Shown: one piece after another, positions 26,633 through 48,294 of the stretch
Layout: each line of letters starts with the position of its first letter
Numbering within the stretch: position 1 is the stretch's first letter
Origin: Halobacillus yeomjeoni
GTDB lineage: Bacteria; Bacillota; Bacilli; Bacillales; Halobacillaceae
Reading direction: 5' to 3'
NCBI RefSeq assembly: GCF_020171525.1
Contig: NZ_JAIVAI010000002.1
Location: forward strand, 248,001-312,000
Length of the DNA: 64,000 nt
Made by a program: the position numbers and the translations under genes
The notes under the pieces: model-generated
What the model was told of the DNA's origin: nothing
Seen by the model: the letters and a program-made list of their open reading frames with translations, nothing else
The model's database searches: none

Positions 26633-26695
26633 TCAGTCTCCTTCTTTCGGTTGAGTTTCACATTACTTAATCACATTTATAGTAAATCTCTTCCA

Positions 26696-29185: not shown

Positions 29186-29204
29186 ATTTCCGCCTCCTCT
29201 CCGA

Positions 29205-31553
29205 TCACCCTAACCAGAATGATGTGAATCCATTTCGCTCTTGATTGTGATACATCGTTGCCAACTTTTGAGCCGATTTAGGGTAATGTGCTTCTGCAAT
29301 GGCACGAGGTCCATTTTGGATACTCTGCCCAGAACAAAACTCAAACAACCTTTCAATAATTTCAGCAGCCTGAATGTCACTTCCATTTAATTTAGGTAAT
29401 ACCTTCTGAAGTAATTGGCGATCAAACGCTTCATTCGGCTCCATAAGTTGACTCTCGTTGTTGTAAATCATAAAAAAACAAATCTCATCTCGAATGCGGT
29501 ATCCAAAATGGCTGTTGTTGCGACTTAATATTTCGTTTACATCCATAAGCAATTTAGTAGTGGACTTAATAATCTCATGATGATCATTAAACGCATCCTT
29601 CAAAGATAGAAATTGAGGCTTTAACAATTCATTACTCACTACCGCTTCAGGATTATCTTTCACCTCATAAAAGTTTGGAAAAGCATCTAGAGCTACATCG
29701 TTAAACTCCATAGTATTAGCGCGGTCCAATACTTTCGAACTGAACGGATGTGTCGTTTCATCCATATTAACTGTTCCTATAATATATACGTTCTCCGGTA
29801 TGATCACTCGATTTGGATAGCTTTCAGGTGTAGGAATTTCAGATGTTACTGTTCTACCATCTATTCTCTTCCGACTTTCCATCACACTTAATAAGTCACT
29901 AAAATAATACTCCACACGAGCTAAATTCATTTCATCTAATAAAATGAAATAAGGTTTGTCTAAATTTTGTTCCGCTTCCATCAGTACCTTTGTAAAAGGA
30001 CCTGGTTTAAACTCCCCTTTAATATCCTCAAAGCCAATTAGATCAGACCCATCGCTCCAATCTGGTCGTACTGGAATCAATGTAAAGCGCCCGTTTTCCT
30101 CCGTAGCACCAAGGCTTGCCGCAAATTTCTCTACAATTTTTGTTTTTCCTGTACCTGATATACCAGAGAGAATAACAAACGGTTTCGTCTTTAGTGATAA
30201 ATATAAGCTTTTCACTTCTTCTTCCTGATAATGCAGTCCTTCAGCTTGTATGTATTCATGGATATGCTGAACAAGTTTAGTATCTGAATCGAAGTGATCC
30301 ACTTGCGGCTCTACACTAGGTGGATCGATTGTTTCTTTTATAAACAGGGGCAAACGTTCATTAAATTTATTAGTAAAATCATGAATGAAGGATGGGGACA
30401 ACTCATAAAAATACCCTTGCTTCACGTTTCCATTCACATCAAAAGGCCCATCCTCTTTCTGTCGCCACTCCAGAGGAATATCGCTCTTGGCAATTCGCGG
30501 GATTAGTTCATGATAATTCACTTTGAGTAAATTCCCGTCCTTTTCCCAGCTATCAGTAGAAAAAGGATTAGGCTCTGTTTTAGCAGGTTCCACAACTTCA
30601 CAAAAGGAGTGAATCATTTGTTGGGAGTATGCCAATACCACATCTCCCGGATTAGCTTTCAAGAGGTCTGTGTGATGGGATAGTGGAGAGCCATTTTTGT
30701 TCGTTTTAGGAGCCCACAAATAACCTCCTTCTTTTTCCTCCTTCATTGTTTTCCCTTGATTGACCCACCAGAATTTAACTTTAGAATTCATATTAATGAC
30801 ATTCCAATCTTCATCAATAAGTTCAGCATATTTCAACCATTGAATTATAGTGTTTTTTCTAGAAACGGCTACTGAATTTTTAATTGTAGTACCATCTGTT
30901 GAACTTACCACTGTTAAAGAAATTATTTCTAATAGTATTTTGTTTTTTTCATCTAGAGTATACATACTCATGCTATCAAGCACTTTATATACCATAAATA
31001 CATATGGAACATTTATTATTTTTTCTTTTAGGGATTCTATGTTGAAGCTTTCTTCTATTAGCTTATCTTGATTATCTAGGTATCCAAGGATCCTCAGACT
31101 TTGTCTAGCTCGCATTTTTAAGCTTTTAATATTTTCTATTTCAAAAACTTTAGATATTTCACTTGCCTCATACTTACCTTCATAAAGATCATCCAATAAG
31201 CTTAATATTTGATGAATCGGGCTTCCAGGTAAAGCTAAAGTGTCAAATTTTTTTATGTATACGTCATTCTGCTTCTGATCTACAAATGGTAAATTAGCTA
31301 ACAAGGCTGCTAATAAACAATTATGTTCTAATTTTAAAAATTCATCAGATCCACTAGACCCCTTAAAGTTTAAAATTTGAAAGGATTTCGCTATCATCTC
31401 TTTTTTAATATATACATTATTTTGAGGGGGAGCTTCTCTAATTACCCAAAGGCCATTTTCATCATTTTTGATAATTTTGTTTTCCGTTTTATTTCTGAGT
31501 GTATAAAAAGAATCTTGTTGTTTTATATAATCATACATAAATTTAAAGATCAT
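29205..31553 (-). CDS. EVE-domain McrB-like AAA+ GTPase/ATPase
   Basis: 782 aa from ATG 31553 behind TAGGAGGGATAAC. Residues 1-250 are a helical region with a possible winged helix (RKNTIIQWLKYAELIDED). Residues about 260-400 look like an EVE/PUA-type modified-base reader (KFWWVNQGKTM, GYLWAPK, NPGDVVLAYS). The rest is an AAA_5/McrB motor: Walker A GISGTGKT (464-471), Walker B ILLDEMNLARVEYYFSD (from about 537), and sensor TVNMDETTHPFSSKVLDR. In the McrB family the reader recognises modified DNA and the motor translocates with its nuclease. Forms a unit with the DUF2357 nuclease downstream. Confidence 0.82.
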   Translation of the reverse strand: MIFKFMYDYIKQQDSFYTLRNKTENKIIKNDENGLWVIREAPPQNNVYIKKEMIAKSFQILNFKGSSGSDEFLKLEHNCLLAALLANLPFVDQKQNDVYIKKFDTLALPGSPIHQILSLLDDLYEGKYEASEISKVFEIENIKSLKMRARQSLRILGYLDNQDKLIEESFNIESLKEKIINVPYVFMVYKVLDSMSMYTLDEKNKILLEIISLTVVSSTDGTTIKNSVAVSRKNTIIQWLKYAELIDEDWNVINMNSKVKFWWVNQGKTMKEEKEGGYLWAPKTNKNGSPLSHHTDLLKANPGDVVLAYSQQMIHSFCEVVEPAKTEPNPFSTDSWEKDGNLLKVNYHELIPRIAKSDIPLEWRQKEDGPFDVNGNVKQGYFYELSPSFIHDFTNKFNERLPLFIKETIDPPSVEPQVDHFDSDTKLVQHIHEYIQAEGLHYQEEEVKSLYLSLKTKPFVILSGISGTGKTKIVEKFAASLGATEENGRFTLIPVRPDWSDGSDLIGFEDIKGEFKPGPFTKVLMEAEQNLDKPYFILLDEMNLARVEYYFSDLLSVMESRKRIDGRTVTSEIPTPESYPNRVIIPENVYIIGTVNMDETTHPFSSKVLDRANTMEFNDVALDAFPNFYEVKDNPEAVVSNELLKPQFLSLKDAFNDHHEIIKSTTKLLMDVNEILSRNNSHFGYRIRDEICFFMIYNNESQLMEPNEAFDRQLLQKVLPKLNGSDIQAAEIIERLFEFCSGQSIQNGPRAIAEAHYPKSAQKLATMYHNQERNGFTSFWLG

Positions 31554-31685
31554 GTTATCCCTCCTATACAAAAGTAAGTTAATGTTTTTAGTTTTATTAG
31601 TATAATATAAAAGTATTAATCAAGTGTGTTGGGTAATTAGAAAGTGAATATTGAAGTTTGTTAATAACTATTTATATGGTATATA

Positions 31686-31722
31686 AAATACCCAGTCCAT
31701 AATAGAAGGGCTGGGTATTTCT
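31686..31722 (-). terminator. Terminator after sspD
   Basis: On the minus strand AAATACCCAGCCC pairs with GGACTGGGTATTT, then TATAT. It separates the Ssp cluster from the EVE-McrB unit. The ~130 bp between it and the AAA+ start is very AT-rich and presumably holds that unit's promoter. Confidence 0.75.
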
Positions 31723-31753
31723 ATAAGTACCTTTTAACTATTTAAAAAGTCTG

Positions 31754-32566
31754 TTAAGAGAAACTACAAACACAAGGTATCGTATCATCTTGGATATCTA
31801 AATAATTGTCTACTCCCTCATTATCCATAATCTCTCTATATTCTTTCAACGTAAAGCGACTACCACTTCTTTTTAAAATAGAAACATCTTTATCAAAGTA
31901 TTTTCTGAAGCGTTCTTCCATTTCTTCTTGCTCTTTAAATCGTTCTGGCCACACTTTATAAAGACGAGCATAGTGACCTAAACCTCCACGCACGCATCTC
32001 CCTCCACAATTGGCATGGGAAAATCCTAAATCATACATGCGAGGTAATTTGATGTTCCATTCATTTTCAATAATACTTTTCACATCTATATCTTCTCTAT
32101 AAGTGTCTACCATAGGAAAGCGTGTTTCTACCGGCTCTAAAGGATAATGTTCATAGAAGTTTTGAAGATTTTCCATTCTATGCTTTTCATGTGGGCCTAT
32201 ACCGAAATATAAAATTGGTTCTAAATTTTCTTCATCCCTTAAGTCCTCTAAGAAAGTGAGTGTTTGATAAACTTTGAGTTCTTCTGAACATTTCGCTACT
32301 CTAGAATTGCCTAAAAATTCATAATCATAAAAGACTTCTTCAGGTGTGCGTCCATCAACCACTTCAGTAATTTCTACTCCAATATATTCAGATACTTCTT
32401 CCATAAATCTATAATTATCTTCGTCTTCCCATAAAGTATTAGTAAAGAAAAGCATTGAATTGTCTTTTCCATGCGCTTGGACCATTTTATATGCTACATA
32501 AGCACTGGACGCTCCCCCACTAAACATAGCTATATGAACTGGTTTGCGAGCTGTTTCAGATGCCAT
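31754..32566 (-). CDS. sspD: SspD-like PP-loop sulfur-transfer protein (PAPS reductase family)
   Basis: 270 aa, ATP-pyrophosphatase (PP-loop) enzyme with the SGGASSAY loop (residues 16-23). Cysteines Cys93, Cys187, Cys191 (NCGGRC) and Cys265/Cys267 (PCVCSFS) could hold an Fe-S cluster, as known for DndC. It is much shorter than DndC (about 500 aa), fitting SspD of the single-stranded phosphorothioation system. By analogy it activates the DNA backbone phosphate and inserts sulfur. RBS AAGGAGG; 14 bp after the ATPase gene. Last gene of the cluster, followed by a terminator. Confidence 0.8.
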   Translation of the reverse strand: MASETARKPVHIAMFSGGASSAYVAYKMVQAHGKDNSMLFFTNTLWEDEDNYRFMEEVSEYIGVEITEVVDGRTPEEVFYDYEFLGNSRVAKCSEELKVYQTLTFLEDLRDEENLEPILYFGIGPHEKHRMENLQNFYEHYPLEPVETRFPMVDTYREDIDVKSIIENEWNIKLPRMYDLGFSHANCGGRCVRGGLGHYARLYKVWPERFKEQEEMEERFRKYFDKDVSILKRSGSRFTLKEYREIMDNEGVDNYLDIQDDTIPCVCSFS

Positions 32567-32580
32567 AGTGTGCCTCCTTT

Positions 32581-35500
32581 TTAATCAATAAATTCTTCCA
32601 TTAAGTGAAAGATAAGTGTTTCGATTTCATCGTTGGAAACCGTACGTCCCCCATTCCTCAAAATACGATGAACATTTTTATACAATGTTTTGGTTTTTGG
32701 AGACATTTCAACTTGCTTTACCGTTTTGAATGTACCATTGTAGTGAATTTCCGTACCTTCTTTAACTTTGGATTGCAAGGAATCCATATGCCTATCTAAC
32801 TGTTCATAAAAAGCGTTTGCTGTAATATCTGACCAATTATTAAGAGGTACTCCTATTACTTCTTGTGACAAATTTGATACTAGATCTCGTTCATCATTAG
32901 AGTTTAAAACAGAATAAACTAGAGGGTTCGTTTTTTGTTGAAAACTATCCTGTTCCTTACTCCATTTTAATAAAGAAGCAAAATCATCACAACTTAACTG
33001 TTCATAAACATAACATTTAACTTCATTTGATTTAATATTTAAATAGTTTTCTAATTCCTCTTTATACTTTTCAATAAAATATTCGTTTTCTTCCCACTTA
33101 CTTTTTAAAAATTGTAGAGAAGCATCTGGGTCAATCTCTGAGTAACGAATATACTCTTTAAATTCGTTCAATTCTTTATTCATATCTTCTGAAAGCTGTG
33201 TATACTTAGGAAGCTTTCTTAACCATTCTAAGAGGGCACTAGTTACTTTCAAAAACAAAGGTTTTCCTTCCATTGACTCATGGATATATTCATTAAATAC
33301 GTTTTCGATGTACTTAAAGAAAAGTTTATAGGTTTCATTAAAATCATAGTATTTAACGAAAATTTTCTCTGGATCGTCCTCCATCATCTCATAAATGATC
33401 TCTCCATCTAGACCAGCAATAAACATATCATTTTTGTAGAATACTAAATAATCCCACTTATCTCTAAGCAGTCCAATCAATAACAATGGAACGATTGGTT
33501 CCCTAATCCCATAGGGTGTTGAAGTTAATATGTCTACTAAATCTTTAAGGCTAGATTCATTGCCACTAGATATTTGAGTGAGTAACCTTTCTCTAATGTT
33601 TCTAAAACTCGGGTGAGCAATCTTACCCAATTCATTTACTTTTATATTGTTGTTTTTAAAGACCGTCGCATAGATCAGATAATCAGGACCTGTCCCTTTT
33701 ATGCCTATGTTATCTTCTTCTGGAGTTTGTATAATTGCATTAATAACATCAATGGCCGCTTTTTTCTGTACTCTACTTATACTTCTCCTATTGAATGCAT
33801 CATTCAATATCTCTGGAGTTTCTGAATAAGTGCTTTCCATTAAATTTGTTAAAATCTTTTCTAACTGCAACTGACTATTTACTGAAAAAGCTTCACCTTT
33901 ATAAATCCATTGAAGTTGATTGGAAAATTCATCATAATTTCTCAATTGCTTATAAAGGTTGTTTTTCAGCTCAGCAATTTTAAAATCTAATTCTTCTAAA
34001 ACCCCTTGATCTTCTTTCGCTAGACTACCTTCTTCCAACAAATATTCACATGATTTCCATAGCTTTAACTCTTTAACTATATCTTCCAACGATAAAGAAT
34101 CATCAATTACAAAATAAGTGAACTCATCTTTTATTTCTTTTATCTTCTCTACCAAATTACTATGATCAGCCCTCGTGGGTATCACAAAATTTATTAAGAT
34201 ATCTGATTTTGACGAGTCATTAACTAGCTCTCCCTCCGCCTCATTATGAATGCGGTCTCCTGTTATTATATTGACTTTTGCAAACCTAGTCATACTTTTT
34301 CGATGATTGTATTGGGTTGGGATGTAAAACTTTTTCTTTATGAGAGATAAAATATAATTCTCTATATCGTCCTTAGATAGTTTTACATTCAAGTATTGTT
34401 CCTCAATCGCACTATCTAGGTTCACACTACTGCCGTCGTACATCTCCCAGTATCCTTGAACAAAGTTATAACGAATAACTTTTTTATCTGTTAAGTCTTG
34501 AAGTTCTTGTTCTACATTCGACTTCATAGAAAAGTTCAAGAACTCGGTAGTCACTTTAACCTTGGAGTAAGAAGATGTAAGTTTTAAAATCGTAAGTAGT
34601 TTCAATAAGTCTTCTTCTTTAGACGAAAGAGTAGTTTTCTTAATCAATCGATTGAATAATATTAAATCTTCACTTTCTCCTTCGTACTGACCTATATTTT
34701 CAATATCTTGAAAGAAATAATTGAACAATTGATGCGGTAAATATTCGTCCTTTTCACTACCAATATGCTTTTTAAGACCTCCGCTTACATTACTTTCTAA
34801 AAAAGTAAACAATGTACGTTCATTTTGCCCATAAATTTTAGACAGTTCTGGTAACAAAAAAGTTGCTACCGGATGCATAGGATAAAAGCCTTTTACCACA
34901 AGTCGCTCTAGTTCTGTCATATTTAATTCTTGGAACAAAGGATATTTACGTAGATGCTCTTTTGTATGCAACACGTATTCTTTTGGAGCACTTGTTTTGA
35001 AATCAGATATTATTTTTTGTCCTAATCGAAGAAACGTAGAGCGATCATTATCTATATAGTATAAGCCATACCTTTTCTCAATTCTTTGAAATTCTTGTTG
35101 GAATTCTGTAGATAAATGCGAGAAATATTGGCGCAAATTCTTATGAGCAATTAATATAGTGTGAAGATTGCTTTCCTCTTCATTAGCTAATTCAGCAACA
35201 TCTTGAAGGTCTTGCATAGCTTCGTTTATAGATTCTGAATTCAGACTTTGTAAAAAGCGGCCAAATTCATCATATACAAATATAATCCCTAAATTATTTT
35301 CCTTTAATTTTTCTAATACATATTTCAATTGACCTATGAAGTCTTCCGTTTCGTAACTTACGAATTCAGTACCAGCGGTCAGTCTAGGAAAAACCTTCTT
35401 AAACCATTCAATCTCATTCGAATTGTAGCTTAGGATTTCTAACCTCCACAATTCAAAATCTTTTTCTTCCTCACTTAAAATTTTCATAAATTCTTTGAAG

Positions 35501-35976
35501 GTTTTTGGAAAGTCTTTTTCCCACATTTCTACTGTGGAAATAATTTTTGAAACTATTCCTGGTATAGTAATTGGGATGTTTTGATTTGATAAGGCTTTTA
35601 ATACCCCTGATATGACAGCCTCTCTAAACCGTCCTTCATTTCCATTTAAGAAGACAGGAAGATACTTCCGCTCATTTTCCTTCACTTGAATTAAATGTTG
35701 ATAAATGGATGCATCAACATTGTCGAATTTATTTATTAAAGTTTCATAGTCTTTATCCTTAATATAATGAGATGCTATACCAGCAATTAATGTCCCTATT
35801 AAAGATTTACCAGTACCATATGGTCCAACAATAATGTGCGATTGCTGACCTTGATTGTTTATCCCTTCTAGTAAAGCAGTCATTGCTTCTGCATGAGAGG
35901 GGGTGGGAAGGTAATGATCAAAGAGCTCGCTTTTTGCAAAATCAAATTTAATATTCACACTTGTTTTAAAACTCAT
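32581..35976 (-). CDS. sspC: SspC-like large P-loop ATPase
   Basis: 1131 aa. Walker A GPYGTGKS (51-58), Walker B GIIFVYDEFGR (230-240), and a likely sensor (LIAHKN near 276-281). The rest is long, helical and charged with no clear second catalytic domain. It begins with FDFAKSELFDHYLPTPSHAEAM, as in ATPases paired with DUF4007 proteins. It overlaps the DUF4007 gene by 4 bp (ATGA) and precedes the PP-loop gene. In Ssp systems SspC is the ATPase of the modification complex. The homology call relies on gene order plus P-loop features, as I cannot run a profile search. Confidence 0.72.
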   Translation of the reverse strand: MSFKTSVNIKFDFAKSELFDHYLPTPSHAEAMTALLEGINNQGQQSHIIVGPYGTGKSLIGTLIAGIASHYIKDKDYETLINKFDNVDASIYQHLIQVKENERKYLPVFLNGNEGRFREAVISGVLKALSNQNIPITIPGIVSKIISTVEMWEKDFPKTFKEFMKILSEEEKDFELWRLEILSYNSNEIEWFKKVFPRLTAGTEFVSYETEDFIGQLKYVLEKLKENNLGIIFVYDEFGRFLQSLNSESINEAMQDLQDVAELANEEESNLHTILIAHKNLRQYFSHLSTEFQQEFQRIEKRYGLYYIDNDRSTFLRLGQKIISDFKTSAPKEYVLHTKEHLRKYPLFQELNMTELERLVVKGFYPMHPVATFLLPELSKIYGQNERTLFTFLESNVSGGLKKHIGSEKDEYLPHQLFNYFFQDIENIGQYEGESEDLILFNRLIKKTTLSSKEEDLLKLLTILKLTSSYSKVKVTTEFLNFSMKSNVEQELQDLTDKKVIRYNFVQGYWEMYDGSSVNLDSAIEEQYLNVKLSKDDIENYILSLIKKKFYIPTQYNHRKSMTRFAKVNIITGDRIHNEAEGELVNDSSKSDILINFVIPTRADHSNLVEKIKEIKDEFTYFVIDDSLSLEDIVKELKLWKSCEYLLEEGSLAKEDQGVLEELDFKIAELKNNLYKQLRNYDEFSNQLQWIYKGEAFSVNSQLQLEKILTNLMESTYSETPEILNDAFNRRSISRVQKKAAIDVINAIIQTPEEDNIGIKGTGPDYLIYATVFKNNNIKVNELGKIAHPSFRNIRERLLTQISSGNESSLKDLVDILTSTPYGIREPIVPLLLIGLLRDKWDYLVFYKNDMFIAGLDGEIIYEMMEDDPEKIFVKYYDFNETYKLFFKYIENVFNEYIHESMEGKPLFLKVTSALLEWLRKLPKYTQLSEDMNKELNEFKEYIRYSEIDPDASLQFLKSKWEENEYFIEKYKEELENYLNIKSNEVKCYVYEQLSCDDFASLLKWSKEQDSFQQKTNPLVYSVLNSNDERDLVSNLSQEVIGVPLNNWSDITANAFYEQLDRHMDSLQSKVKEGTEIHYNGTFKTVKQVEMSPKTKTLYKNVHRILRNGGRTVSNDEIETLIFHLMEEFID

Positions 35977-36851
35977 ATCGCTGCTTCTACCTTTCTTTTA
36001 TACTCAAACCTCAAAAACTCTAAAGGTGAAAGTTTTGGAAGCCTAACCGTGTCTAAGTTATTTGTCCTGATAAAGGTTATTGGATATTTAGGATGTTCTG
36101 TTAAGTGATTGAGTCCATCAATAACACTTGACCGAGACATGTTAAAAGTCCTCCCCCATAGACCACCGTTATTTAAAATTTCGTCTACTAATAAGTCGTT
36201 CGTCCCGTTCTCATTTGCATAATTCAACAAAACATACATTAATGCAGAATACCCAACATCTTTACTTTCTTTATACATTTTTTTTACTTTGTTTTGTTTC
36301 ACCTCTAATAACCCCAATGAGTGCAATGGACTTTGATTAACCTCTTCAGGATCTTGAGTATCTTGTCCAGCTGTATAGAATTTAATTAAACAATCCACAT
36401 CTCTTTTCAAAGAGTTCTCAGATACCTTTATTTCTTTTTCAAGGAGGACCCAATCTTTTAAATCCTCTAAAACCTTTTCTTTAGTTGTAAAAGTCTCATT
36501 ATACAAGTTAAAAAACCAATACCATGTAGTAGCAGGTTCAACTCTACTTACTACATAGTAATGTAACAGGGCCAATGTATCAGTGAATTGAATGTAGGGA
36601 TCATATTCATTAATGAAATCAGCAAACTCTGTGATAAAATGCCCCTTTTTACGATCTTCCTTTGTTTTCTCTTCTACAAGATTAGTGGCTAAAGCCCAAA
36701 ACCTTAAGGATTTCACCATGTTTTTTCCTAATCCTACTTTTTCAAATGCATCCTTTCTGTAAAAGAAACGATCATCAGATGGGATGTTTTTGAATATTCT
36801 GTTAATCCATCTATCTCTTAAGTAAAAACTTTGATGTTGTCCGAAGGCCAT
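35973..36851 (-). CDS. sspB: SspB-like DUF4007 protein
   Basis: 292 aa from ATG 36851, 8 bases behind GAAAGGATG. DUF4007 landmarks: MAFGQHQSFYLRDRWI, GLGKNMVKSLRFWALA (about 40-55), DPYIQFTDTLALLHYYVVS, ATTWYWFFNLYNETFT, SENSLKRDVDCLIKFY and a SPLHSLGLLEV tail. In the single-stranded phosphorothioation system the DUF4007-type protein SspB nicks DNA at the modification site (recalled from literature). It shares a 4-bp overlap with sspC. Its own ribosome binding site lies just after a hairpin, which could make sspBCD an independent unit. Confidence 0.78.
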   Translation of the reverse strand: MAFGQHQSFYLRDRWINRIFKNIPSDDRFFYRKDAFEKVGLGKNMVKSLRFWALATNLVEEKTKEDRKKGHFITEFADFINEYDPYIQFTDTLALLHYYVVSRVEPATTWYWFFNLYNETFTTKEKVLEDLKDWVLLEKEIKVSENSLKRDVDCLIKFYTAGQDTQDPEEVNQSPLHSLGLLEVKQNKVKKMYKESKDVGYSALMYVLLNYANENGTNDLLVDEILNNGGLWGRTFNMSRSSVIDGLNHLTEHPKYPITFIRTNNLDTVRLPKLSPLEFLRFEYKRKVEAAI

Positions 36852-36903
36852 TTTTAACATCCTTTCTTATTGGAAGCAAAGCTCCAACTGTACATTTCTC
36901 CCC

Positions 36904-36942
36904 GAAAAAGTGCACCCGATTTTTAAGGTGCACTTTTTTCAA
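36904..36942 (-). terminator. Hairpin between the restriction (dptFGH) and modification (sspBCD) modules
   Basis: On the minus strand AAAAAAGTGCACCTT pairs with GGTGCACTTTTT around AAAATCG. The T-run is five bases. It begins directly after the dptH stop and ends about 50 bp before sspB. Confidence 0.7.
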
Positions 36943-36944
36943 AA

Positions 36945-39900
36945 CTATCTAGCAGCTAAATATTTGAATATAGCTCCTTGTACTTTCGGCTCTAAGAAGG
37001 GGCTTTTCCCTCTGATTAATGAGGTAGCTCCGCCTTTTAAGAGGAAGTCTCCCTTCCCGGCAAGTTTTTCAGCTCCTGTTTCATCGAGAATTACTTTTGA
37101 AGAAGAGCCATCTGTAACTTTTAATGCTAACCTTGCAGGTAAATTACTGCGAATAGTTGTATTTATAACTTCTGCTTTAGGGTTTTGAGTACAGATAATC
37201 AAGTGCATCCCCGCTGCTCTTCCTTTTTGACCTAATCGTTTAATAGCTTCTTCGACTCTTTTCGCCATTTTTTGATCTTGAGATTGAAAATCTGCGAACT
37301 CGTCAAAGACGATTACTTTATGGGCCATTTTCTGTTCATCTGACACTTGGTCATTATAATGTTTAATATCACTCATGAATTCCTTCTGCATCAATGTGAA
37401 ACGTTCATCCATTTCATCACATAATTCTTCTAACCTTGTAACCGATTTATCTAAGTCATAAATCACTTCCTCTGTATAAGGTATAGTTTCATACTTTGTA
37501 AACTCTACCTTCTTAGGGTCAATGAAAGTGAATTTCACATGCTCTTTTGAGTATAACAACATCAAGCTAATGATTATAGAATTCAATGTAACACTCTTAC
37601 CACTTCCTGTAGTTCCCCCTACTAAGAAGTGTGGGCTCATTGAGTCAGCTAAATCTATGCTCAGTATATTATTAAGAGGATCAATACCTATCGGAACTAC
37701 AAGCTTTTTACTGATATCGTCAGTTAATGAGTCCCTGACATTTTTCATGAACTCATCAAAATAGACGATAGAAGGAGTCTCACGGTTGATGTCTATATAT
37801 AAACCTCTATTATGAACAGCGACAGATGGCGGAACATCTAATCCCAACCAGAGTTGTAGACTCTGAGCTTTTTTCTCAATTGTAGAGGGAGCTACTTTTG
37901 AAGGGATGTCCAAATATATCCTTATCACACTGGACCCTACGACAGTATCTTTAATTTTTGTAGGTATATCATTCTGACTGAGATTACGGACTATTTTACG
38001 TTGATAATCTTCAACTAGTTGTTGTAAATTTTCATCCTCGTCAGATCTATTCAGCTCTAAACCTGCCAGAGCTTTCTCTTCAGGATGATAGGCATGAGAA
38101 TCATCCAAGGTCTCATATTCGTTATTTTCTAGAACCTTCGTTTTTTCAGGATTTTGGTCATCATTAAGGGCTGTGTCTCCGGGTGAAGATACATCTTCTT
38201 TTTTATCCTCTTTCTTTTCTGAGGTTCCGGCTTTAGATTGTTGACCTGTAGAATATCTATCAGGACCTGTATTTTCAGCTGACGAATCCCCTTCAATTTC
38301 CTCAGATGGGGACAACTCTGAATACTCTGCCTTTTCTTCTATATTCGTTACCCCAAATCGATCTAGTACATATTTTCGGTTGAATATATTAAGTTTGGTG
38401 TTTTCTTCCACATTATCTTCGAAAACTCCATCATGGGTCATTTTTTCAGCATATTTCTCCAAAAAGCTGTCGTAACAATAAATGTTAATTTCAGCTTCTA
38501 TGTTTGTAGTTATTTCAGACATTCCGGAGTTTTGAAGTTCATTGATTAAGTCAACTTCATACTGTGCATAATCTTTATTTTCAATTAGGTAATTTACAAA
38601 TTCCTCTCGCCAAAATTCTCCATCTGCTGTATTTTGATCAAATGAAAATAGATCTTCATACAAATTCACACCTGCTTTTACTTGCTGTATAGCATCTATT
38701 TTTTCTTTATCAATCAAGGTCTCACGTATGAACTTTAACTCTACTAACCTGAAATTCACATGTATGGAGTCACCTTTTTTAGAAATAGTAGTGACGACCA
38801 AGTCAGGACGCCTCTTTGTCGCTCTTTTCCTTGAGAACCATGGCAATTCATCACATAATGAAATAACTTGTAAACAATCTTCATTAACAATATTATCACG
38901 GATATACATACTAGTTGCCATTAATTCATGAGCAAATTTACCTGGTCCAAGAGCTTTAAGAACTAGCGACCCGGATATTTCTTTCACAACATCCACTGTC
39001 TTCTGGACTTCATTGTTTGCTGAGATTTGCTTCACTCTTAATAATTGCTTGAGCTTTCTTTCCAATCGACCATAATACTCTGTTTCACTTTTCGCCGTAT
39101 TCAACCTTTTGATATTTCTAGAAGAAGATACAAGTAACTTGAATTGCTTACTCGTTCCAGCTTTAGATTTATAATGTATAATTTGAGCTTTATTAGAAGC
39201 TTTTTTAAGTAGAGATCTATCTAAAAAGCGATCCATTATCATATTCCAGTTATAATTTTCATGCATAAAATCTATCAGGGAACCTTCATTAAACTTGCTA
39301 GCAGTAATTGCTTGGCTTAGTAAATATAAGTCGCCTTGATCTGGTATAGAATTGGTGTGTCCTATATACTGCATCTGATAGAAATCTGCAATAACTTTCG
39401 GAAGACATTCAGTCTCTAATGGCATACGCTTTTTAGCTTCCCTATCTTGTAAAGGCTCAAGTATCGGTTTTATAAACCAATCACTTTCCTTTTTGAACTT
39501 TTTCCTATTAAACTCAAAATCAATCTGTCCAGATTTTGAGAAGTAATCTGCTAATATAACAAGATCAGCGTCAACCATATGAGTTTTTAGTTCTTTTTCA
39601 ATCTTGTTAACTGAGTCCCCGTTTATTACATTTACTTCTACTTTTGGGAACTTATTTTCGTAAGATGGTAATACGAACTCTTCATTATGTTCAATCCAAG
39701 AGTTAATATCTTGGTGTAAGGTAGCTGCACTAGTACTATGCGCAGTTATTTTTAATTTTTGTATACCTAATTTGCTCTTGAACAAATTCTTTATGGATTC
39801 AGTTATAATGCCTACGTCATCCACATGTAAGAATAATACGTCGAGCCCATCTTTAGCATAAGGAAATACTTCTAAATAGTTTTTTGTTACATTAACCACT

Positions 39901-42038
39901 TCTTTAGAGATTTCTTTAGTGTCGTTTACGCTATAAGAAGACCTAGTATTATCTAAGGTGAATAAACCATTACCCATCTCTTCATATACTTCTATAAAAT
40001 AATGGGTGTTATCGCCTCTGCTGAAATATCTAGGTGCTAACTTATGATACTTATCCATAGAGAACTCTAAGAATTCCTCTCTTTGATTCACGTTAAGTTC
40101 ATCTTGGAGAGCTTGTTTAAACCAATTATTTATCTCATCACTCATAGCAACCATTTTATTCAAATAACTCAACAGTCTTAGTGGATTAAATAAAGTCACT
40201 ATTCTTTCTACTGGGTGTATATATTTTGATGGCTTTTCATCAAAATAATCTTTTACACCAATAACATTTAGGTAACTGTAAAGATTTTGTACATTGGCTA
40301 CCGATTTGTAAACGTTTGAAAGAAGTTCTTCTAAAAGTTCTTCAAGGTCTGACTCGCTGACTGAACTAACACCTTCTGTTACTAAAGTAGCTAGATAAGA
40401 TGAATATGCATTCAAAAAGCTTATAAACCTTTCATAAGCTTCTGCTGATTCCTTTTCATTTTGGTTTAATGTAGGGCCTATTTCGTTAGTTATATAACTG
40501 ATTAAATCTTCTATAACAAGGTCCTCTTCTAAATACTTCTTAATGTAAGGGATGTTTTTCCCATCAATTAAATCAAAAAACTGGACAGCTGTATTTTGGT
40601 GTATTCCATCAATCGTAAAAAGAGCATTATCTAATTGTTTTTTAGATTCCTTCTCATTTTTCAATAAAACTAAGCGAAAAGTGACACTATCTATTTCTTT
40701 AGTATCTTTCTCGTTTATACTGTATTCATTAAAATATAGCTTAGGGATTTTGTTGTGAATGTCTTTCAAATAAAACTTGAGTAAACTGCTAGTATTTTTA
40801 TCGATTTCTTTAGTGCTTACATCTAATCTCAAAGAGTAATCATTTACTCCGCTACTCGAGTCACTATCTAAATTGTCTTCTATCAAGGTGAAGGTTTCAT
40901 AAAACAATCCATCTAACAAATCGCTATATACAGAGGAGTGCCGTTTCTTTTCTACATAACGCTTTAATGATTTAAGTAACTTACCATCCGACTCTAAAGA
41001 CTCATAATGTTCGTCAATAAAATCTTCTACGTAATCAGGATCATTATCATAGTCTATTGCTTGCACTACATTATCTATCTGACTCTCTTCTTCTTTAGAT
41101 AACTCTCCATCCTGTTTAAAATGCTCTCGAAGTTTATCTCCTAGAGTTTTTTTAGGCTGTTTAAATTCAAATATTTGATTAATGATTTCAAATTCATAGC
41201 GAAGTAATTTCTCATTTTCGGCATTTATAAATTGAAAAACTTCTTTTCTGAAATCTTCTACAGTCGTTTCTTCCCAAATTTCGTTTTGCCATCCTCTTTC
41301 CTCTTCATACGTTAGAAAGTCATAAAATTTGTCCTGTAACTTCTCTGTATCTACAGATGCGCCACTACTTTTTTGAAGGTGAGCCAAAAGATAATTATTG
41401 TTTAGTCTCTTTAAATACTTTTTGTTTACTTGAAAATTACTATCTACAAAACAGTTAAGTTCTGGAAGATTAGACTGTATTTTATTTACCATTGATACTT
41501 GGTCATCATTAAGTATTCCAGAAATGAAATTCGTCAGACTTTTTAACTGCGGTTCAGAAACCTTTCTATACAAATTAAGAAATTCTCGGAGAATATCAAT
41601 TTCTTCACTTGCAACTTTGTATTCCATTTGAATTAAATAATAAAGGCTTTCCATACCTTCGCTGTTTAGCAATACTGATTCATCTAAAGAGAATAGATTC
41701 TCTAAACTTTGAGCTTCACTTGTAATATCATTAATTATAAGTAAAAGGGCTTCTTTACCCTTTGTGTTATTTCTTAGCCATATACTTGTTTCATGTTCTT
41801 TATAGGAATATTGAGAAAACCCTTCTACTGGAGTTATAGTTCTTATAATTGGTTTGTAATATTTTTCAAGTGAATGAAAGTTAGTATTTAGTTGATCTAA
41901 GACAGCTTCTATATTCTTATCAGATAAACCATTAACTTTCAGAAAAAGCTTTTCACTATGTGATTCTGCTTGTTCTTTAAAGTAACGCTGTAAGATGGTG
42001 TGAACCCATTGTCCTGTTAGCCGATGAGACGTAATCAT
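36945..42038 (-). CDS. dptH: DptH/SspH-like protein: PD-(D/E)XK-like core plus FtsK/HerA-type ATPase
   Basis: 1697 aa, the length expected for phosphorothioation-dependent restriction protein DptH/DndH. ATG 42038 follows GAGGAGGCC by 7 bases and the dptG stop by one base; a longer GTG start is less likely. The first ~1000 residues are helical, without recognised motifs. Near residue 1080-1105 RRPDLVV and then RLVELKF match a PD-(D/E)XK nuclease core. An acidic low-complexity linker follows. The C-terminal ~280 residues are an FtsK-like motor: Walker A GGTTGSGKS (about 1475), TFIDPKKVEF, Walker B VIVFDEFADF, and IICTQNPKAEVIN. Likely the motor-nuclease of the restriction complex. Confidence 0.82.
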   Translation of the reverse strand: MITSHRLTGQWVHTILQRYFKEQAESHSEKLFLKVNGLSDKNIEAVLDQLNTNFHSLEKYYKPIIRTITPVEGFSQYSYKEHETSIWLRNNTKGKEALLLIINDITSEAQSLENLFSLDESVLLNSEGMESLYYLIQMEYKVASEEIDILREFLNLYRKVSEPQLKSLTNFISGILNDDQVSMVNKIQSNLPELNCFVDSNFQVNKKYLKRLNNNYLLAHLQKSSGASVDTEKLQDKFYDFLTYEEERGWQNEIWEETTVEDFRKEVFQFINAENEKLLRYEFEIINQIFEFKQPKKTLGDKLREHFKQDGELSKEEESQIDNVVQAIDYDNDPDYVEDFIDEHYESLESDGKLLKSLKRYVEKKRHSSVYSDLLDGLFYETFTLIEDNLDSDSSSGVNDYSLRLDVSTKEIDKNTSSLLKFYLKDIHNKIPKLYFNEYSINEKDTKEIDSVTFRLVLLKNEKESKKQLDNALFTIDGIHQNTAVQFFDLIDGKNIPYIKKYLEEDLVIEDLISYITNEIGPTLNQNEKESAEAYERFISFLNAYSSYLATLVTEGVSSVSESDLEELLEELLSNVYKSVANVQNLYSYLNVIGVKDYFDEKPSKYIHPVERIVTLFNPLRLLSYLNKMVAMSDEINNWFKQALQDELNVNQREEFLEFSMDKYHKLAPRYFSRGDNTHYFIEVYEEMGNGLFTLDNTRSSYSVNDTKEISKEVVNVTKNYLEVFPYAKDGLDVLFLHVDDVGIITESIKNLFKSKLGIQKLKITAHSTSAATLHQDINSWIEHNEEFVLPSYENKFPKVEVNVINGDSVNKIEKELKTHMVDADLVILADYFSKSGQIDFEFNRKKFKKESDWFIKPILEPLQDREAKKRMPLETECLPKVIADFYQMQYIGHTNSIPDQGDLYLLSQAITASKFNEGSLIDFMHENYNWNMIMDRFLDRSLLKKASNKAQIIHYKSKAGTSKQFKLLVSSSRNIKRLNTAKSETEYYGRLERKLKQLLRVKQISANNEVQKTVDVVKEISGSLVLKALGPGKFAHELMATSMYIRDNIVNEDCLQVISLCDELPWFSRKRATKRRPDLVVTTISKKGDSIHVNFRLVELKFIRETLIDKEKIDAIQQVKAGVNLYEDLFSFDQNTADGEFWREEFVNYLIENKDYAQYEVDLINELQNSGMSEITTNIEAEINIYCYDSFLEKYAEKMTHDGVFEDNVEENTKLNIFNRKYVLDRFGVTNIEEKAEYSELSPSEEIEGDSSAENTGPDRYSTGQQSKAGTSEKKEDKKEDVSSPGDTALNDDQNPEKTKVLENNEYETLDDSHAYHPEEKALAGLELNRSDEDENLQQLVEDYQRKIVRNLSQNDIPTKIKDTVVGSSVIRIYLDIPSKVAPSTIEKKAQSLQLWLGLDVPPSVAVHNRGLYIDINRETPSIVYFDEFMKNVRDSLTDDISKKLVVPIGIDPLNNILSIDLADSMSPHFLVGGTTGSGKSVTLNSIIISLMLLYSKEHVKFTFIDPKKVEFTKYETIPYTEEVIYDLDKSVTRLEELCDEMDERFTLMQKEFMSDIKHYNDQVSDEQKMAHKVIVFDEFADFQSQDQKMAKRVEEAIKRLGQKGRAAGMHLIICTQNPKAEVINTTIRSNLPARLALKVTDGSSSKVILDETGAEKLAGKGDFLLKGGATSLIRGKSPFLEPKVQGAIFKYLAAR

Positions 42039-42039
42039 C

Positions 42040-43650
42040 CTAATAGGCCTCCTCACTACTTCTATGTGTGTGTATTGACTTGTAAGGATTATGAATAAGA
42101 GCGGTTGCGTCAGAATACTCTACTAATAGTCCATTTTGCCTTAGCTTTTGACGCAAGGCTTCTTCATTCTTTTTGAAGTAACTAATATTAAGCTTTGATT
42201 TTTCATATATCCCAGAGTCCTTAGCTTGCTGGACCCCTATTATGAAGCCATAGTCCTCATATAAATCTTGTAAAAATTCACTGTATTCTTTGTCATGATT
42301 AGGTAATACTTTCATGTAAACCAAAGTTTGAAGGAAGGTATCTGACATGAAATAACGGTATTTGGATCCTGCCCTGAAACCTCCAAGCCCTCCATCTCTT
42401 AACAAGATTTTAATAATACTCAGCTGATCTTTTTTAAGACCATCGGATACCATATCCTTTACAACAGGATATAACTTTGTAAATAAATCACCTTTATCTT
42501 CACATTTTTTTAATGCACTTAAGATTTGCTTTCTCTTAGCTACACTCAGCTTATTTACTCCAAGTAACTTAAGAAGTTCGTGCCCTTTAGGCTCGATATT
42601 TGCTTTCCATTCAGTTAGCTTTTCGTCACTATAGTTAGTAGAAATTATTTCATGAAATGATTCATTGAACTTTTCATCAAATATTTGTTTGATCATTAAT
42701 TCATTTTGAGAAAAAGTATCAGATGATAATTTTAATATTTGAGGTAATTGTCCATCCATACAATCAAAGAAGAATTGGGTTTTAGACTGTTCTCCCACTT
42801 TTGACCGATCATACATATAACGAACAAGTTGAAAGCTGATTAAACTCGTCAATAATTGGAACATCTCATACATATCCACTTTAATAGACAAAAGGTTCTC
42901 TAATTCTATTGCGAAGTTTTTGTAAAGATAATGATCATTAGTAGGGAGTAAAGGTATCTCTTTATTAGATTCATTAGGAACTAGATAAGGCGGTGTTCCA
43001 TCACCATCATTCGAGTCTTCTAAGATGTATTGAACGTTATCAACAATGTGATAAATGGACTTGTTTTGATTTAACAAGTTGTTAAAACGGTCACAAATAA
43101 ACCTCCGTCGCTCATAATTATCTTTTGTTCCATATTTCAGCATTAAGAAGTATAATTCTCCTCCACGTGCAAAGAAATTCCTTTCAAAATCCGGAGCATT
43201 AGCTCCCGCTTTCTTTCTCAGTTCAAAAAACAATAAAGATTCATGGAGTGGGTATAGTGAACGAGCGTACCAGGACCGATCAGCTTTCTTTCCATTGTTA
43301 TTATACAAAGGAACTTCTAGGTTTCTGAAAAATTCTTGTATGTAGCCTACTTTTTCAGGGTCATCCATTTCTTTCTTCAAACGTTCTTTCTTTTCAACTG
43401 GGACAGTTGCAATATTTCTTTTACTTCCTTCTTTAACTCCTTCAAATATAAACTCTCTAAAACCTGCTCCTTTATACCTCTTATAGGTCGGACTCTCAAA
43501 GTTATAGGTTGTTCCGCGAAGCACATTTAAAAATTCTAATACATATTCGGGCCCTCGTTGTCCGTCTGTAAATCTATGTCCCCATATCTGTGCAGACAAT
43601 CGACTGGAGAATTCTTTTACATCCTTGATCTGATCTTTATTTTCACTCAT
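42040..43650 (-). CDS. dptG: DptG/SspG-like restriction protein
   Basis: 536 aa, all-helical looking, no P-loop or nuclease motif visible. Assigned mainly by position between DptF- and DptH-like genes, by size (DptG/DndG homologues are roughly 450-550 aa), and by the recurring Dpt F-G-H order. Starts MSENKDQIKDVKEF at ATG 43650 behind AGGGGTGA, 13 bp after dptF. Ends one base before dptH, implying translational coupling. Probably a scaffold of the DptFGH complex (inference). Confidence 0.72.
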   Translation of the reverse strand: MSENKDQIKDVKEFSSRLSAQIWGHRFTDGQRGPEYVLEFLNVLRGTTYNFESPTYKRYKGAGFREFIFEGVKEGSKRNIATVPVEKKERLKKEMDDPEKVGYIQEFFRNLEVPLYNNNGKKADRSWYARSLYPLHESLLFFELRKKAGANAPDFERNFFARGGELYFLMLKYGTKDNYERRRFICDRFNNLLNQNKSIYHIVDNVQYILEDSNDGDGTPPYLVPNESNKEIPLLPTNDHYLYKNFAIELENLLSIKVDMYEMFQLLTSLISFQLVRYMYDRSKVGEQSKTQFFFDCMDGQLPQILKLSSDTFSQNELMIKQIFDEKFNESFHEIISTNYSDEKLTEWKANIEPKGHELLKLLGVNKLSVAKRKQILSALKKCEDKGDLFTKLYPVVKDMVSDGLKKDQLSIIKILLRDGGLGGFRAGSKYRYFMSDTFLQTLVYMKVLPNHDKEYSEFLQDLYEDYGFIIGVQQAKDSGIYEKSKLNISYFKKNEEALRQKLRQNGLLVEYSDATALIHNPYKSIHTHRSSEEAY

Positions 43651-43663
43651 TTAAAAATCACCC

Positions 43664-45367
43664 CTATTCAAATCCGATTGTGTCTACAATATAAAGTCCT
43701 GCTTCCCTATCTAATCTAAGAATTTCTAATTCATCTTCTTCGGGTTCACTGGCATTGATCAATTCATTCTTAAATGTATCAAGCAAGATTTCTACTTCTT
43801 GTCTTAGTATATTATGAGTCCCTCCACCTGCTATTCTCATAAGGTACTCAAATACAAGCAAATTGATATCTAACTTGATGTCTAAATCTCCTGGCTCTAC
43901 TGTTAATACTAACTTGGAAGAAAGATGGTCTATGTCTCCTCTAGTTTGTTCAATTCTTATATCTATATTTCTCTTTTTAAATTCCCCGCTAACCAAGGCG
44001 TTCTCACTTGTGGCAAGCAAATCTTTCTGGCCGGAAGTCTTAATTAATTTCTTAGAAAAAGTTCTATTCAGTCCTGAAATTAAATGACCTTTTAAACTGC
44101 TAGATACTTCCTGATTTTCAAAAGCTTCAACATATTGAGGCAAATATTCAAAAGCTAGCAATTCATTCACATCAAAATGCTCATTAGTTTTCAATTCAAA
44201 GAAAGTTTTTCTTCTTAGTTTTGCTATCCATTCCTCCATAAATTTTTTATTATCAATGTCATCATGATATCTATAAGTGTGAAGTTGGTTAACAAAATAA
44301 TTGAACTTCATATCTAATTGATTATTAAACAAATTCCTATGATTTTCTTCTAAAGATTCACTTCCGCTTATGTCTCCATTAACTATGAAATCATCTATAA
44401 CTGAATGTGAGTATTTACCAGGATCCAATATCCTTAATACTTTAAGTGCTCTCATTTCGTCAAAAGCGTCTTTTGGTGCATGCGCTCCATAAAAATTATC
44501 ATAATAAGCACTTAACCTTTGTTTATCAATTTTTTGAATATCTTCTGTAAATATATCTTCACATACATACCCGCCTGTTATCGTATACGCTACATGAATT
44601 AACATTTCTCTCATTGTGATATGTTCATCAAGAAAGTCTAACGTTCGGTACTGCATTCCAATTTGATCTTTAATATTCGAATCAGCCGTCTTTTTATGGT
44701 TATGATAAATGATACACTTCTCTTTCATCGGGCATGTATCACAGCTACGCCAATTCTCTTGTTTATTCCAATCATCCAAAACTTTACGTACATATTCAGA
44801 AGAAGTTACATCAAGAAGGTTAATTACATCTAGACGTTCATCGTTATTTTTATAATCATCAAACCTACTTTTCACTTCGTTATATAAATCTGCCAAAGTA
44901 CTTCTCTGAGCAAGAAACTTATTTAGTTTCCCTTCGTTAGCAGCTATTAAATAGTAGTTTTTATCTGCGTAATTAGTATGTATTTGCTGTTGAAGGTTGT
45001 TAAGTATTTCTTCTATGACGCTATCTCTTAATTCAGATAAATCTTTTACAAATGTTAAGGTTCCCTCAGAAAATTTTATTGTTATCAAGCCATTTTCAGG
45101 CCATGACGCAAGTGGTGTTTCTTCAAAAAAGTTATAAACTGTCCTACATAATCTAGTTTTACCGTCTCCAGCATTACCGGTCAATATGATACTTCTAGGC
45201 TTCTCTTCTAATACTTTCAATAAGTATTTCTCTACTTGAGTTTCGATTGTAAAATTATAATTTACTGTTTTTTCGTCATTCGTGTATTCATCATATATTT
45301 TTGAATGATTTGGAGACAGGACATTGTACTGATCCAAATAATATACAAAATCATTCTTATGCATCAT
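43664..45367 (-). CDS. dptF: DptF/SspF-like P-loop restriction protein
   Basis: 567 aa from ATG 45367 (MMHKNDFVYYLDQYN), 5 bases behind AAAAGGGG; a GTG six bases upstream and an adjacent ATG are alternatives. Walker A GNAGDGKT (64-71) and a strand ending YYLIAANEG (likely Walker B/sensor region). A Cys cluster CDTCPMKEKC (Cys209, Cys212, Cys218) may bind zinc. Length and motifs match phosphorothioation-dependent restriction protein DptF. First gene of the cluster. With G and H it should attack DNA lacking phosphorothioate marks. Confidence 0.8.
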   Translation of the reverse strand: MMHKNDFVYYLDQYNVLSPNHSKIYDEYTNDEKTVNYNFTIETQVEKYLLKVLEEKPRSIILTGNAGDGKTRLCRTVYNFFEETPLASWPENGLITIKFSEGTLTFVKDLSELRDSVIEEILNNLQQQIHTNYADKNYYLIAANEGKLNKFLAQRSTLADLYNEVKSRFDDYKNNDERLDVINLLDVTSSEYVRKVLDDWNKQENWRSCDTCPMKEKCIIYHNHKKTADSNIKDQIGMQYRTLDFLDEHITMREMLIHVAYTITGGYVCEDIFTEDIQKIDKQRLSAYYDNFYGAHAPKDAFDEMRALKVLRILDPGKYSHSVIDDFIVNGDISGSESLEENHRNLFNNQLDMKFNYFVNQLHTYRYHDDIDNKKFMEEWIAKLRRKTFFELKTNEHFDVNELLAFEYLPQYVEAFENQEVSSSLKGHLISGLNRTFSKKLIKTSGQKDLLATSENALVSGEFKKRNIDIRIEQTRGDIDHLSSKLVLTVEPGDLDIKLDINLLVFEYLMRIAGGGTHNILRQEVEILLDTFKNELINASEPEEDELEILRLDREAGLYIVDTIGFE

Positions 45368-45434
45368 ATGCACCCCTTTTCCGGAAGTATATGTATAAAA
45401 AAGCTAAAGTTCTATAAAGTTACCGGTTACTTAA

Positions 45435-45463
45435 CTAATAGTCATTGTTGACCATTCTATCAA
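45435..45463 (-). promoter_or_regulatory. Putative promoter of the dptFGH module
   Basis: On the minus strand TTGATA (45458-45463), 17-bp spacer and TATTAG (45435-45440), about 70 bp upstream of dptF. A near-palindrome around ACCGGT (45423-45428) lies downstream and could be an operator. Confidence 0.45.
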
Positions 45464-45701
45464 AGAACCCCCATCTTTGTTAATTCAATAGTAAAAAAGA
45501 TTCTTATATTGTTCTAGATGATATGAAAATAGACCAAATATATAATAAACTCTTCTATTTACATTATATTCCTATTAATGATCCAATACAATTACTCACC
45601 TCTAAATAAATTCTAGCTCTTAAGTATCATTAAGAGGCGACACTCTCCACTTATGTCGCTTACTTTTAAAAGTTGTATACATACAAGCTTTTCTTAAAAC
45701 A
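45464..45701. other. AT-rich spacer with two adjacent hairpins
   Basis: No ORF with a ribosome binding site. Two neighbouring stem-loops are seen: CTCTTAA/TTAAGAG (45617-45636, 6-base loop) and GCGACA/TGTCGC (45637-45659). They sit between the helicase terminator and the dptF promoter and have no obvious T-run. The region may mark the island's right boundary. Confidence 0.4.
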
Positions 45702-45740
45702 AAAAATAAGTCGTAAGTTATTACTTACGACTTACTTGTT
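45702..45740 (-). terminator. Terminator overlapping the helicase stop codon
   Basis: On the minus strand AGTAAGTCGTAAGT pairs with ACTTACGACTTA, followed by TTTTTTG. The helicase stop codon TAA (45725-45727) lies inside the first arm of the stem. Confidence 0.85.
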
Positions 45741-47914: not shown

Positions 47915-48294
47915 GCCGGTCTCCTCTCCTTTTTCATGTCTATAAAAAATAAAAATAGATGAAAGGAGAAATCACGGATGAGACTTCTTCTTCCACCTAT
48001 GGCTGACGTTTTTTTACCGTTCCCTATTATATCTCTTCACCCGCTCGGTTTCTACCTCTGATTTCACTCCTCCAGAATCTACCTCCCCTTGTCAAAATGG
48101 AATCATCATAACCCAAACAGGTGTAACGATTTAAACAGCCGTTGCTCTTGATTTTATACTCTGTGAACAAGGATTTTCCACACCTTCACCCTCCTGCAAA
48201 AATCGCATTCCTCTTTTATGATTTTTCCCTCTCCAAAGTCGTATATTTTTTCAAAACTGACTCATAATAACAACTCGGAAGGGAGGGAAGACCC
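47915..48294. promoter_or_regulatory. Divergent intergenic region with a sigma-G-like promoter for the SASP-like gene
   Basis: 380 bp without a credible ORF. On the plus strand GTATA (48241-48245), 17 bp and CATAATA (48263-48269) match the sigma-G pattern (GnATR, 17-18 bp, CATnnTA) used for small acid-soluble spore proteins. The ribosome binding site GGAAGGGAGGG follows. The left part presumably holds the minus-strand helicase promoter. Confidence 0.6.

Follow-up and report, generated by a model that had tools for sequence, protein, structure and literature searches.

What kind of defence do six tightly packed minus-strand genes of Halobacillus yeomjeoni encode, and how would they mark the DNA of their own host when the protein in the place of the sulfur-inserting enzyme SspD looks so unusual? 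The genes lie at 45367-31754 of a 64,000-nt stretch of contig NZ_JAIVAI010000002.1 (hereafter the window, whose numbering is used throughout), and the genome that carries them (G000, the own genome below) is 98.5% complete by the tool used. An earlier note, made from the letters of this DNA, had described a complete SspBCD plus DptFGH-like phosphorothioation cassette and implied an atypical combination of Dnd and Ssp parts. Our analysis points to a bacillal variant of the SspBCD-SspFGH restriction-modification type, which would tell self from foreign DNA by the mechanism proposed below, with a probability of about 0.7. This reading builds on results computed here, namely the gene content and order, the remote homology of SspFGH to DndFGH (firm for F and H, likely for G), the invariant nuclease and motor residues of SspH, and the divergence of the SspD-position protein.

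Organization of the six-gene operon

According to the list of open reading frames and PADLOC, which names all six genes (SspD at 47 bits only), the order is sspF-sspG-sspH-(hairpin)-sspB-sspC-sspD. Together with RNA folding of the hairpin, this bears out the completeness and the gene order given in the earlier note. All six reading frames are intact, and the gene set is far beyond chance. The first gene, sspF (43664..45367), codes for the P-loop subunit of the restriction complex (Walker A GNAGDGKT; PADLOC SspF 674 bits); its open frame spans 45373-43664 (569 aa), but translation more likely begins at 45367, where an ATG follows AAAAGGGG. The Walker A pattern was found in 15 of 16 SspF proteins, the exception (L051) being annotated with a later start. 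The restriction subunit encoded by sspG (42040..43650; 536 aa; PADLOC SspG 365 bits) is likely a remote relative of DptG, and sspH (36945..42056; 1703 aa) matches the SspH model of PADLOC (366 bits) and Pfam FtsK_SpoIIIE (135 bits). The sole DUF4007 match in the own genome is sspB (35973..36860; 295 aa), for which the profile search proposed earlier gave 221 bits with DUF4007 and 189 bits with the PADLOC SspB model; its product also matches the solved SspB structure 6juf (E 1e-16). It is SspB, the predicted DNA-nicking and recognition subunit, the nicking role being taken from the literature. The AAA+/P-loop ATPase SspC (32581..35976; 1131 aa; PADLOC SspC 360 bits) has Walker A GPYGTGKS at residue 51, a pattern present in four of the six SspC proteins checked, and a 270-aa variant PP-loop protein occupies the sspD position (31754..32566).

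A DUF4007 SspB adjoining a P-loop SspC, and sspF-sspG-sspH adjoining sspBCD, are two of the features by which membership of the SspBCD-SspFGH type was judged, and both are present. None of the DndB, DndC, DndD, DndE, DptF, DptG and DptH models reached E 0.1 for the six operon proteins, in agreement with the earlier statement that DndD and DndE are lacking; the search for these two covered the operon proteins and not the rest of the genome. The published counterpart is the iscS-sspBCD and sspFGH set of Vibrio anguillarum FF-93, which was tested in Escherichia coli and defends against several phages, and the same source counts sspFGH with sspBCD in 196 of 2,678 sspBCD strains (PMC8092258; all papers are cited from the parts of their text that were available). 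The cassette is of this published type and hence not new, so that a known system takes the place of the implied Dnd/Ssp mix. The FF-93 system shares with the window the adjacency of sspBCD and sspFGH, the lack of sspE, the SspF Walker A and the FtsK-like end of SspH. The window differs in its F-G-H-B-C-D order with a hairpin boundary, in the nuclease site proposed for its SspH, and in its phage-like SGGASS protein at the SspD position, although the SspD of FF-93 itself lay outside the comparison.

Absence of sspA and sspE and the source of sulfur

As the earlier note had stated, neither sspA nor sspE is linked to the operon. The operon contains no sspA, and both SspE domains, DUF262 (GmrSD_N) and HNH (GmrSD_C), have zero matches in the own genome. 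PMC8092258 reports that IscS may replace sspA, and IscS is the sulfur donor in FF-93; systems of this type usually have no linked sspA, so the missing sspA and sspE are ordinary. The search for an unlinked desulfurase that had been suggested returned three genes in the own genome: sufS after sufD, an IscS-type gene before mnmA and another before thiI, named from a reading of their sequences. A linked desulfurase precedes sspF in the related G056 locus. It is plausible, though not assured, that a host desulfurase stands in for SspA.

Remote homology, secure for F and H and likely for G, of SspFGH to DndFGH

In the available text, PMC8092258 states that SspFGH is without sequence homology to DndFGH, and PMC10470545 reports no significant identity between them, while a review (PMC12707154) calls sspFGH 'homologs' in passing; PMC10853773 analyses DndFGH and contains 'ssp' five times, without naming SspFGH at any of them. 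We compared profiles of 16 SspF, 16 SspG and 15 SspH proteins with profiles of six each of DptF, DptG and DptH by hhalign. For the Ssp side, 12 of the 36 plasmid records with SspF were taken (10 as Ssp, two as MADS-type); the Dpt side consists of five of the eight DptF plasmid records plus genome locus L065, with L066, L069 and L070 left out. The sspH of Bacillus sp. P14.5 (L043), split into three open frames, was omitted from all SspH alignments, and loci of distant phyla (L023-L027 and L040-L042) entered only the locus comparison with shared queries.

SspF aligned with DptF at 97.8% probability (E 7.6e-13, 451 columns) and SspH with DptH at 97.7% (E 1.6e-12, 740 columns). Non-matching pairs reached at most 1.4%, except for SspH-SspC (49%), which spans their P-loops. 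In the reversed controls the whole-length Dpt pairs scored 0.1-0.2%, and no other comparison exceeded 0.9%. When two MADS-type triads were added to the Ssp side, the values against Dpt were 99.0% for F, 85.5% for G (E 5.7e-6, 235 columns) and 99.1% for H, with reversed profiles at 0.1-0.2%. Taken whole, F and H are thus secure as remote homologs at the level of sequence profiles, and homology of SspG to DptG is likely, not secure. The resemblance to DptFGH proposed in the earlier note is therefore well founded at the profile level, even though the discovery paper (PMC8092258) denies sequence homology. The suggested search with the curated DptF, DptG and DptH models failed to detect this kinship: no operon protein was matched up to E 0.1, and the DptF model is unmatched in the own genome.

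Besides the F/H homology, the two groups share the three-gene order, the nuclease-like residues described below and an FtsK/HerA-type motor; the window triad differs in pairing with SspBCD instead of DndBCDE and in a G subunit that is weak when compared alone. Two loci that we call MADS-type, from their gene context and from MADS model matches to window SspG and SspH, have F, G and H proteins matching the window triad at 99.5, 97.4 and 98.0% (G over 94 columns only). In the stretch compared they differ in that a methylase replaces the phosphorothioation genes, and their F protein is far longer and annotated as a protein kinase. On both plasmids (L055 Hymenobacter, L058 Piscinibacter) an N-6 methylase gene and a gene for the long 'kinase' with its SspF-like part are followed by SspG-like and SspH-like genes. 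Elsewhere, in L011, L012, L015 and L016 (G370, G243, G274, G070), an SspF-like domain lies in open frames of about 1500 aa, pointing to a fusion with a further domain such as has been described for some DndF proteins. No SspF relatives were found in viral contigs or phages.

A nuclease-like site embedded in SspH

SspH contains a PD-(D/E)XK-like site at residues ~1040-1130 and ends in an FtsK/HerA motor with its Walker A at 1481. E1044, D1069, D1085, E1106, K1108 and Q1125 are invariant in 17 SspH and MADS-type sequences; after the addition of six DptH proteins, all of these except D1069 are kept in 23 of 23, as are G1481, G1484, D1585 and E1586 of the motor. A separate hhalign run sets the residues of DptH_L067 opposite the same SspH nuclease residues, and in an AlphaFold model of low overall confidence they fall within or beside the expected helix, strands and helix. 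We take the E..D..ExK..Q residues to represent the PD-(D/E)XK pattern. For SspH, the available part of PMC8092258 mentions only the FtsK-like end; for the Dnd counterpart, DndH is described as a restriction endonuclease joined to HerA/FtsK (PMC10853773), and nicking and translocation are reported for DndFGH (PMC11662687). The embedded site, newly pinpointed here from conserved residues, is likely the DNA-cutting site of the system.

A divergent PP-loop protein at the SspD position

The sixth gene does not encode an ordinary SspD. Its product scores 47 bits with the PADLOC SspD model, against 306 for a standard SspD (L049), and its Pfam PAPS_reduct match is below the cut-off. Identity amounts to 19-22% with six standard SspD proteins and to 57-91% with five other bacillal ones. 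The PP-loop reads SGGASS in the window, SGGA[SA]S in six of six bacillal proteins, SxGxxS in the viral ones and SGG[KR]DS in six of six standard SspD; this last motif, from which the window protein departs, is our own yardstick drawn from those six and not a published criterion. The variant is present in all six bacillal sspB-C-D loci compared (the window, its congeners G413 and G411, and L043-L045), the G056 locus being covered short of its sspD. The variant retains cysteines at the positions where standard SspD has them, and the profile match of the variant to standard SspD (96.9%, E 1.5e-10) places it in the PP-loop/PAPS-reductase fold. The earlier description of a short PP-loop protein as in Ssp systems does not hold in its ordinary sense, and the DndC/SspD profile search proposed with it gave a mixed answer: PADLOC names the gene sspD, at 47 bits only, and no DndC model matches up to E 0.1. 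The gene is divergent, and phosphorothioate synthesis by its product is putative.

Its closest relatives outside ssp loci, among the sets searched, are viral. Identity to nine viral PP-loop proteins is 40-52% for eight and 36% for the ninth, although the search that gathered this set used the window SspD as query and is thereby biased towards likeness. Relatives were found in 84 of 50,697 phage records and 29 of 72,556 plasmid records, with identities up to 38% among the 25 plasmid relatives listed. In an IQ-TREE phylogeny that used nine of the 12 viral loci, standard SspD and DndC stand apart from the bacillal and viral proteins with support 100; rooted on the standard side, the six bacillal SspD form one group (support 93) nested among the viral proteins (76-96). 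The label 'phage-like', meaning nearest among the phage, plasmid and viral sets, bacterial chromosomes not having been surveyed for this protein, is applied on the strength of identity, loop motif, PADLOC score and tree. The PHROG family was rejected as a basis for it: the window protein matches phrog_424 (126 bits), but three standard SspD match it better (140-164 bits), so that this family does not discriminate. Phage PAPS-reductase-like proteins share the loop type and CGG[RI]C with the window protein at no more than 52% identity, yet sspB and sspC are absent from all 12 viral loci in the 6-9 kb covered. The only solved relative found is PptA (PDB 21fy), and our literature search found no paper on it, no mention of this SspD variant and no description of what phage PP-loop proteins do in phages. 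A further likeness is offered by Type 4 BREX, whose DUF4007 protein, PAPS reductase and BrxC are related to SspB, SspD and SspC (PMC12839542); no PglZ or BrxL match is listed among ten window proteins scanned.

Relatives, neighbourhood and transcript boundaries

The F-G-H-B-C-D order on one strand recurs in Bacillus sp. P14.5 (L043) and in two Bacillaceae hosts, Alkalihalobacterium chitinilyticum (L044) and Metabacillus arenae (L045), all three without a match to the SspA query within 21 kb. The split sspH of L043 (4792-9904) reflects decay or a sequencing error. Within the family, SspC was found in three of 44 genomes (own, G413 and G411). The congener G413 is 91% identical to the window in SspD, 77% in SspB and 64% in SspC. 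Its modification genes are those of the window and of SspABCD-SspE systems, but beside them lie a gene for a DUF262 protein with DGQQR and HNH-like HHIYP motifs, which PADLOC does not name SspE, and a second PP-loop gene; sspFGH is absent within 39.5 kb, the remaining G413 genome not having been searched for it. A common pair, a sub-threshold TPR/wHTH gene and an M42-type peptidase gene, lies downstream of the ssp block in both genomes; it follows the block directly in G413 and comes after a McrBC-like pair in the window. In G414, a UvrD-like gene and about 6 kb of other genes without ssp match precede the same pair. Shared host genes with differing contents indicate an insertion neighbourhood in which the effector module differs and the modification module is shared. 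Measured over 2 kb at a time, the G+C content of the ssp block is 31-36%, whereas positions 46001-48000 have 46%, which fits horizontal arrival.

On the other flank, just upstream of sspF, a UvrD/PcrA-like helicase gene (45725-47914, minus strand) is matched in 22 of 22 genomes of the genus; with best matches in the other genomes 71-77% identical, it is a host gene at the border of the island. In G413 (contig C8; L036/L037), a gene with a weak ZacB/DrmC match, a MzaB-like gene and a 540-aa gene also lie beside sspBCD. MzaB-like and PbeA-like genes follow sspD in L043, and the 540-aa gene resembles the PbeA-like one at its N-terminus by eye. On plasmids L047, L050 and L053 sspH is immediately followed by genes annotated DUF262, so that SspE-like and SspFGH effectors may occur side by side.

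After sspD in the window come genes for a McrB-like AAA_5 protein (788 aa, PADLOC PDC-M26A) and a McrC-like DUF2357/PDDEXK_7 protein (829 aa) at 31571-26696 (minus strand), a separate type IV-like restriction pair. The pair was considered as part of the system and rejected: a McrC-like piece of 46% identity adjoins sspF on its upstream side in L044, and none lies in the other 18 loci compared with the same queries, several of which are short or overlapping, which leaves the linkage weak.

A hairpin with a T-run separates sspH from sspB (36906..36934, minus strand; z -5.07, -19.5 kcal/mol), and none of 200 shuffles was as stable. With L043 (z -4.99), L044 (z -8.67) and L045 (z -2.60), the junction carries a hairpin in four of four loci. 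Further terminator-like hairpins lie downstream of sspD (31670..31745, minus strand; fold of 31760-31670, z -3.93). The 36906-36934 hairpin is missing from the output of the terminator scanner, which accepts loops of up to 8 bases, and consensus scans of 26600-45800 found no promoters or terminators clearly beyond chance. The hairpins may be terminator-like boundaries of separate restriction and modification transcripts.

Proposed mechanism and alternatives

By analogy with the published Vibrio system, from which phosphorothioate chemistry, SspB nicking and protection of marked DNA are carried over, a host desulfurase (an mnmA-linked or thiI-linked IscS-type enzyme, or SufS) would load sulfur onto the SspD-position protein through its conserved cysteines. 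SspB and the ATPase SspC would find and nick the target site, where sulfur would be placed in the DNA backbone. SspF-G-H would form a Dnd-type complex moving along DNA by the motor at the SspH end, and unmarked DNA would be cut by the mid-SspH site (E1044, D1085, E1106-x-K1108, Q1125).

A number of observations weigh against this reading. SspG against DptG alone gives 13.2% (E 0.0021), its C-terminal part 35% and MADS-type G alone 5.8%, so that only the joint profile reaches the value quoted above; against DptH, the value drops to 41% for SspH without its motor and to 15.7% for the nuclease stretch on its own. A complete motor Walker A is found in 12 of 15 SspH, with L048, L049 and L057 lacking it. 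The model of SspH 700-1262 has a mean predicted local distance difference test (pLDDT) score of 50.6, with 10-residue means of 54-87 in the nuclease core, and Foldseek found no match to it below E 0.001. (Its top rows, from E 0.008, are mostly isocitrate dehydrogenases, with McrC and HamA nucleases appearing weakly; the SspG model has pLDDT 45.) Without the K/D of SGG[KR]DS, ATP pyrophosphatase activity of the window SspD is not assured. Finally, chromosomal iscS failed to rescue a Vibrio sspA mutant (PMC7188994); of the earlier claim that the host must supply the desulfurase, the presence of candidate genes stands, and their serving as a stand-in is not assured.

The BCD module might instead write a different mark, through other sulfur chemistry, another motif or a non-sulfur change, that SspFGH reads. 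The viral-side identities and tree position of the PP-loop protein, its loop, and the fact that the SspD model matches no other gene in the own genome speak for this, although that model is unspecific at low scores (matches in seven of 14 control genomes) and two further PAPS_reduct-family matches exist in the own genome. Since the cysteine positions and the profile match agree with standard SspD, phrog_424 takes in standard SspD too, and PADLOC scores SspB and SspC as ordinary members of Ssp systems, we regard a different mark as unlikely. It is quite improbable that SspFGH acts against invaders on its own, only neighbouring sspBCD and not reading its marks, the view that Rakesh et al. took of DndFGH. 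In its favour, DndFGH frequently occurs uncoupled from DndABCDE (PMC10853773), the hairpin separates the two units, and G413 has closely related sspBCD with no sspFGH in the stretch searched; but order and strand are kept in four bacillal loci, and Vibrio SspFGH damages DNA without the mark and is toxic in E. coli without SspBCD marks (PMC8092258). That the cassette is decayed or silent, for want of a matching sspA or through an inactive SspD, is very improbable given its intact frames, conserved catalytic residues and recurrence in L043-L045, even with the broken sspH of L043; the lack of an adjoining sspA, and the identity of only 29-31% between the three best desulfurases of the own genome and a linked SspA from another genome, are what favour it.

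Implications

With the SspBCD-SspFGH reading preferred, what is new concerns its parts, the system class being already known: the profile-level kinship of SspFGH and DndFGH, the nuclease-like site of SspH and the divergent SspD. In bacillal Ssp systems the sulfur-inserting enzyme may have been replaced by a phage-related PP-loop protein, with a mark that may differ from the CpsCA phosphorothioate and a DndFGH-like reader, an idea that we offer as doubtful speculation. The divergent SspD suggests that phage-like PP-loop proteins can serve sulfur insertion. An invariant nuclease-like site common to both groups allows the cutting site of SspFGH and its kinship with DndFGH to be probed with a single point mutant. 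It would also unite the restriction modules of Ssp, Dnd and MADS-type systems in one family of effectors, paired with different self-marks.

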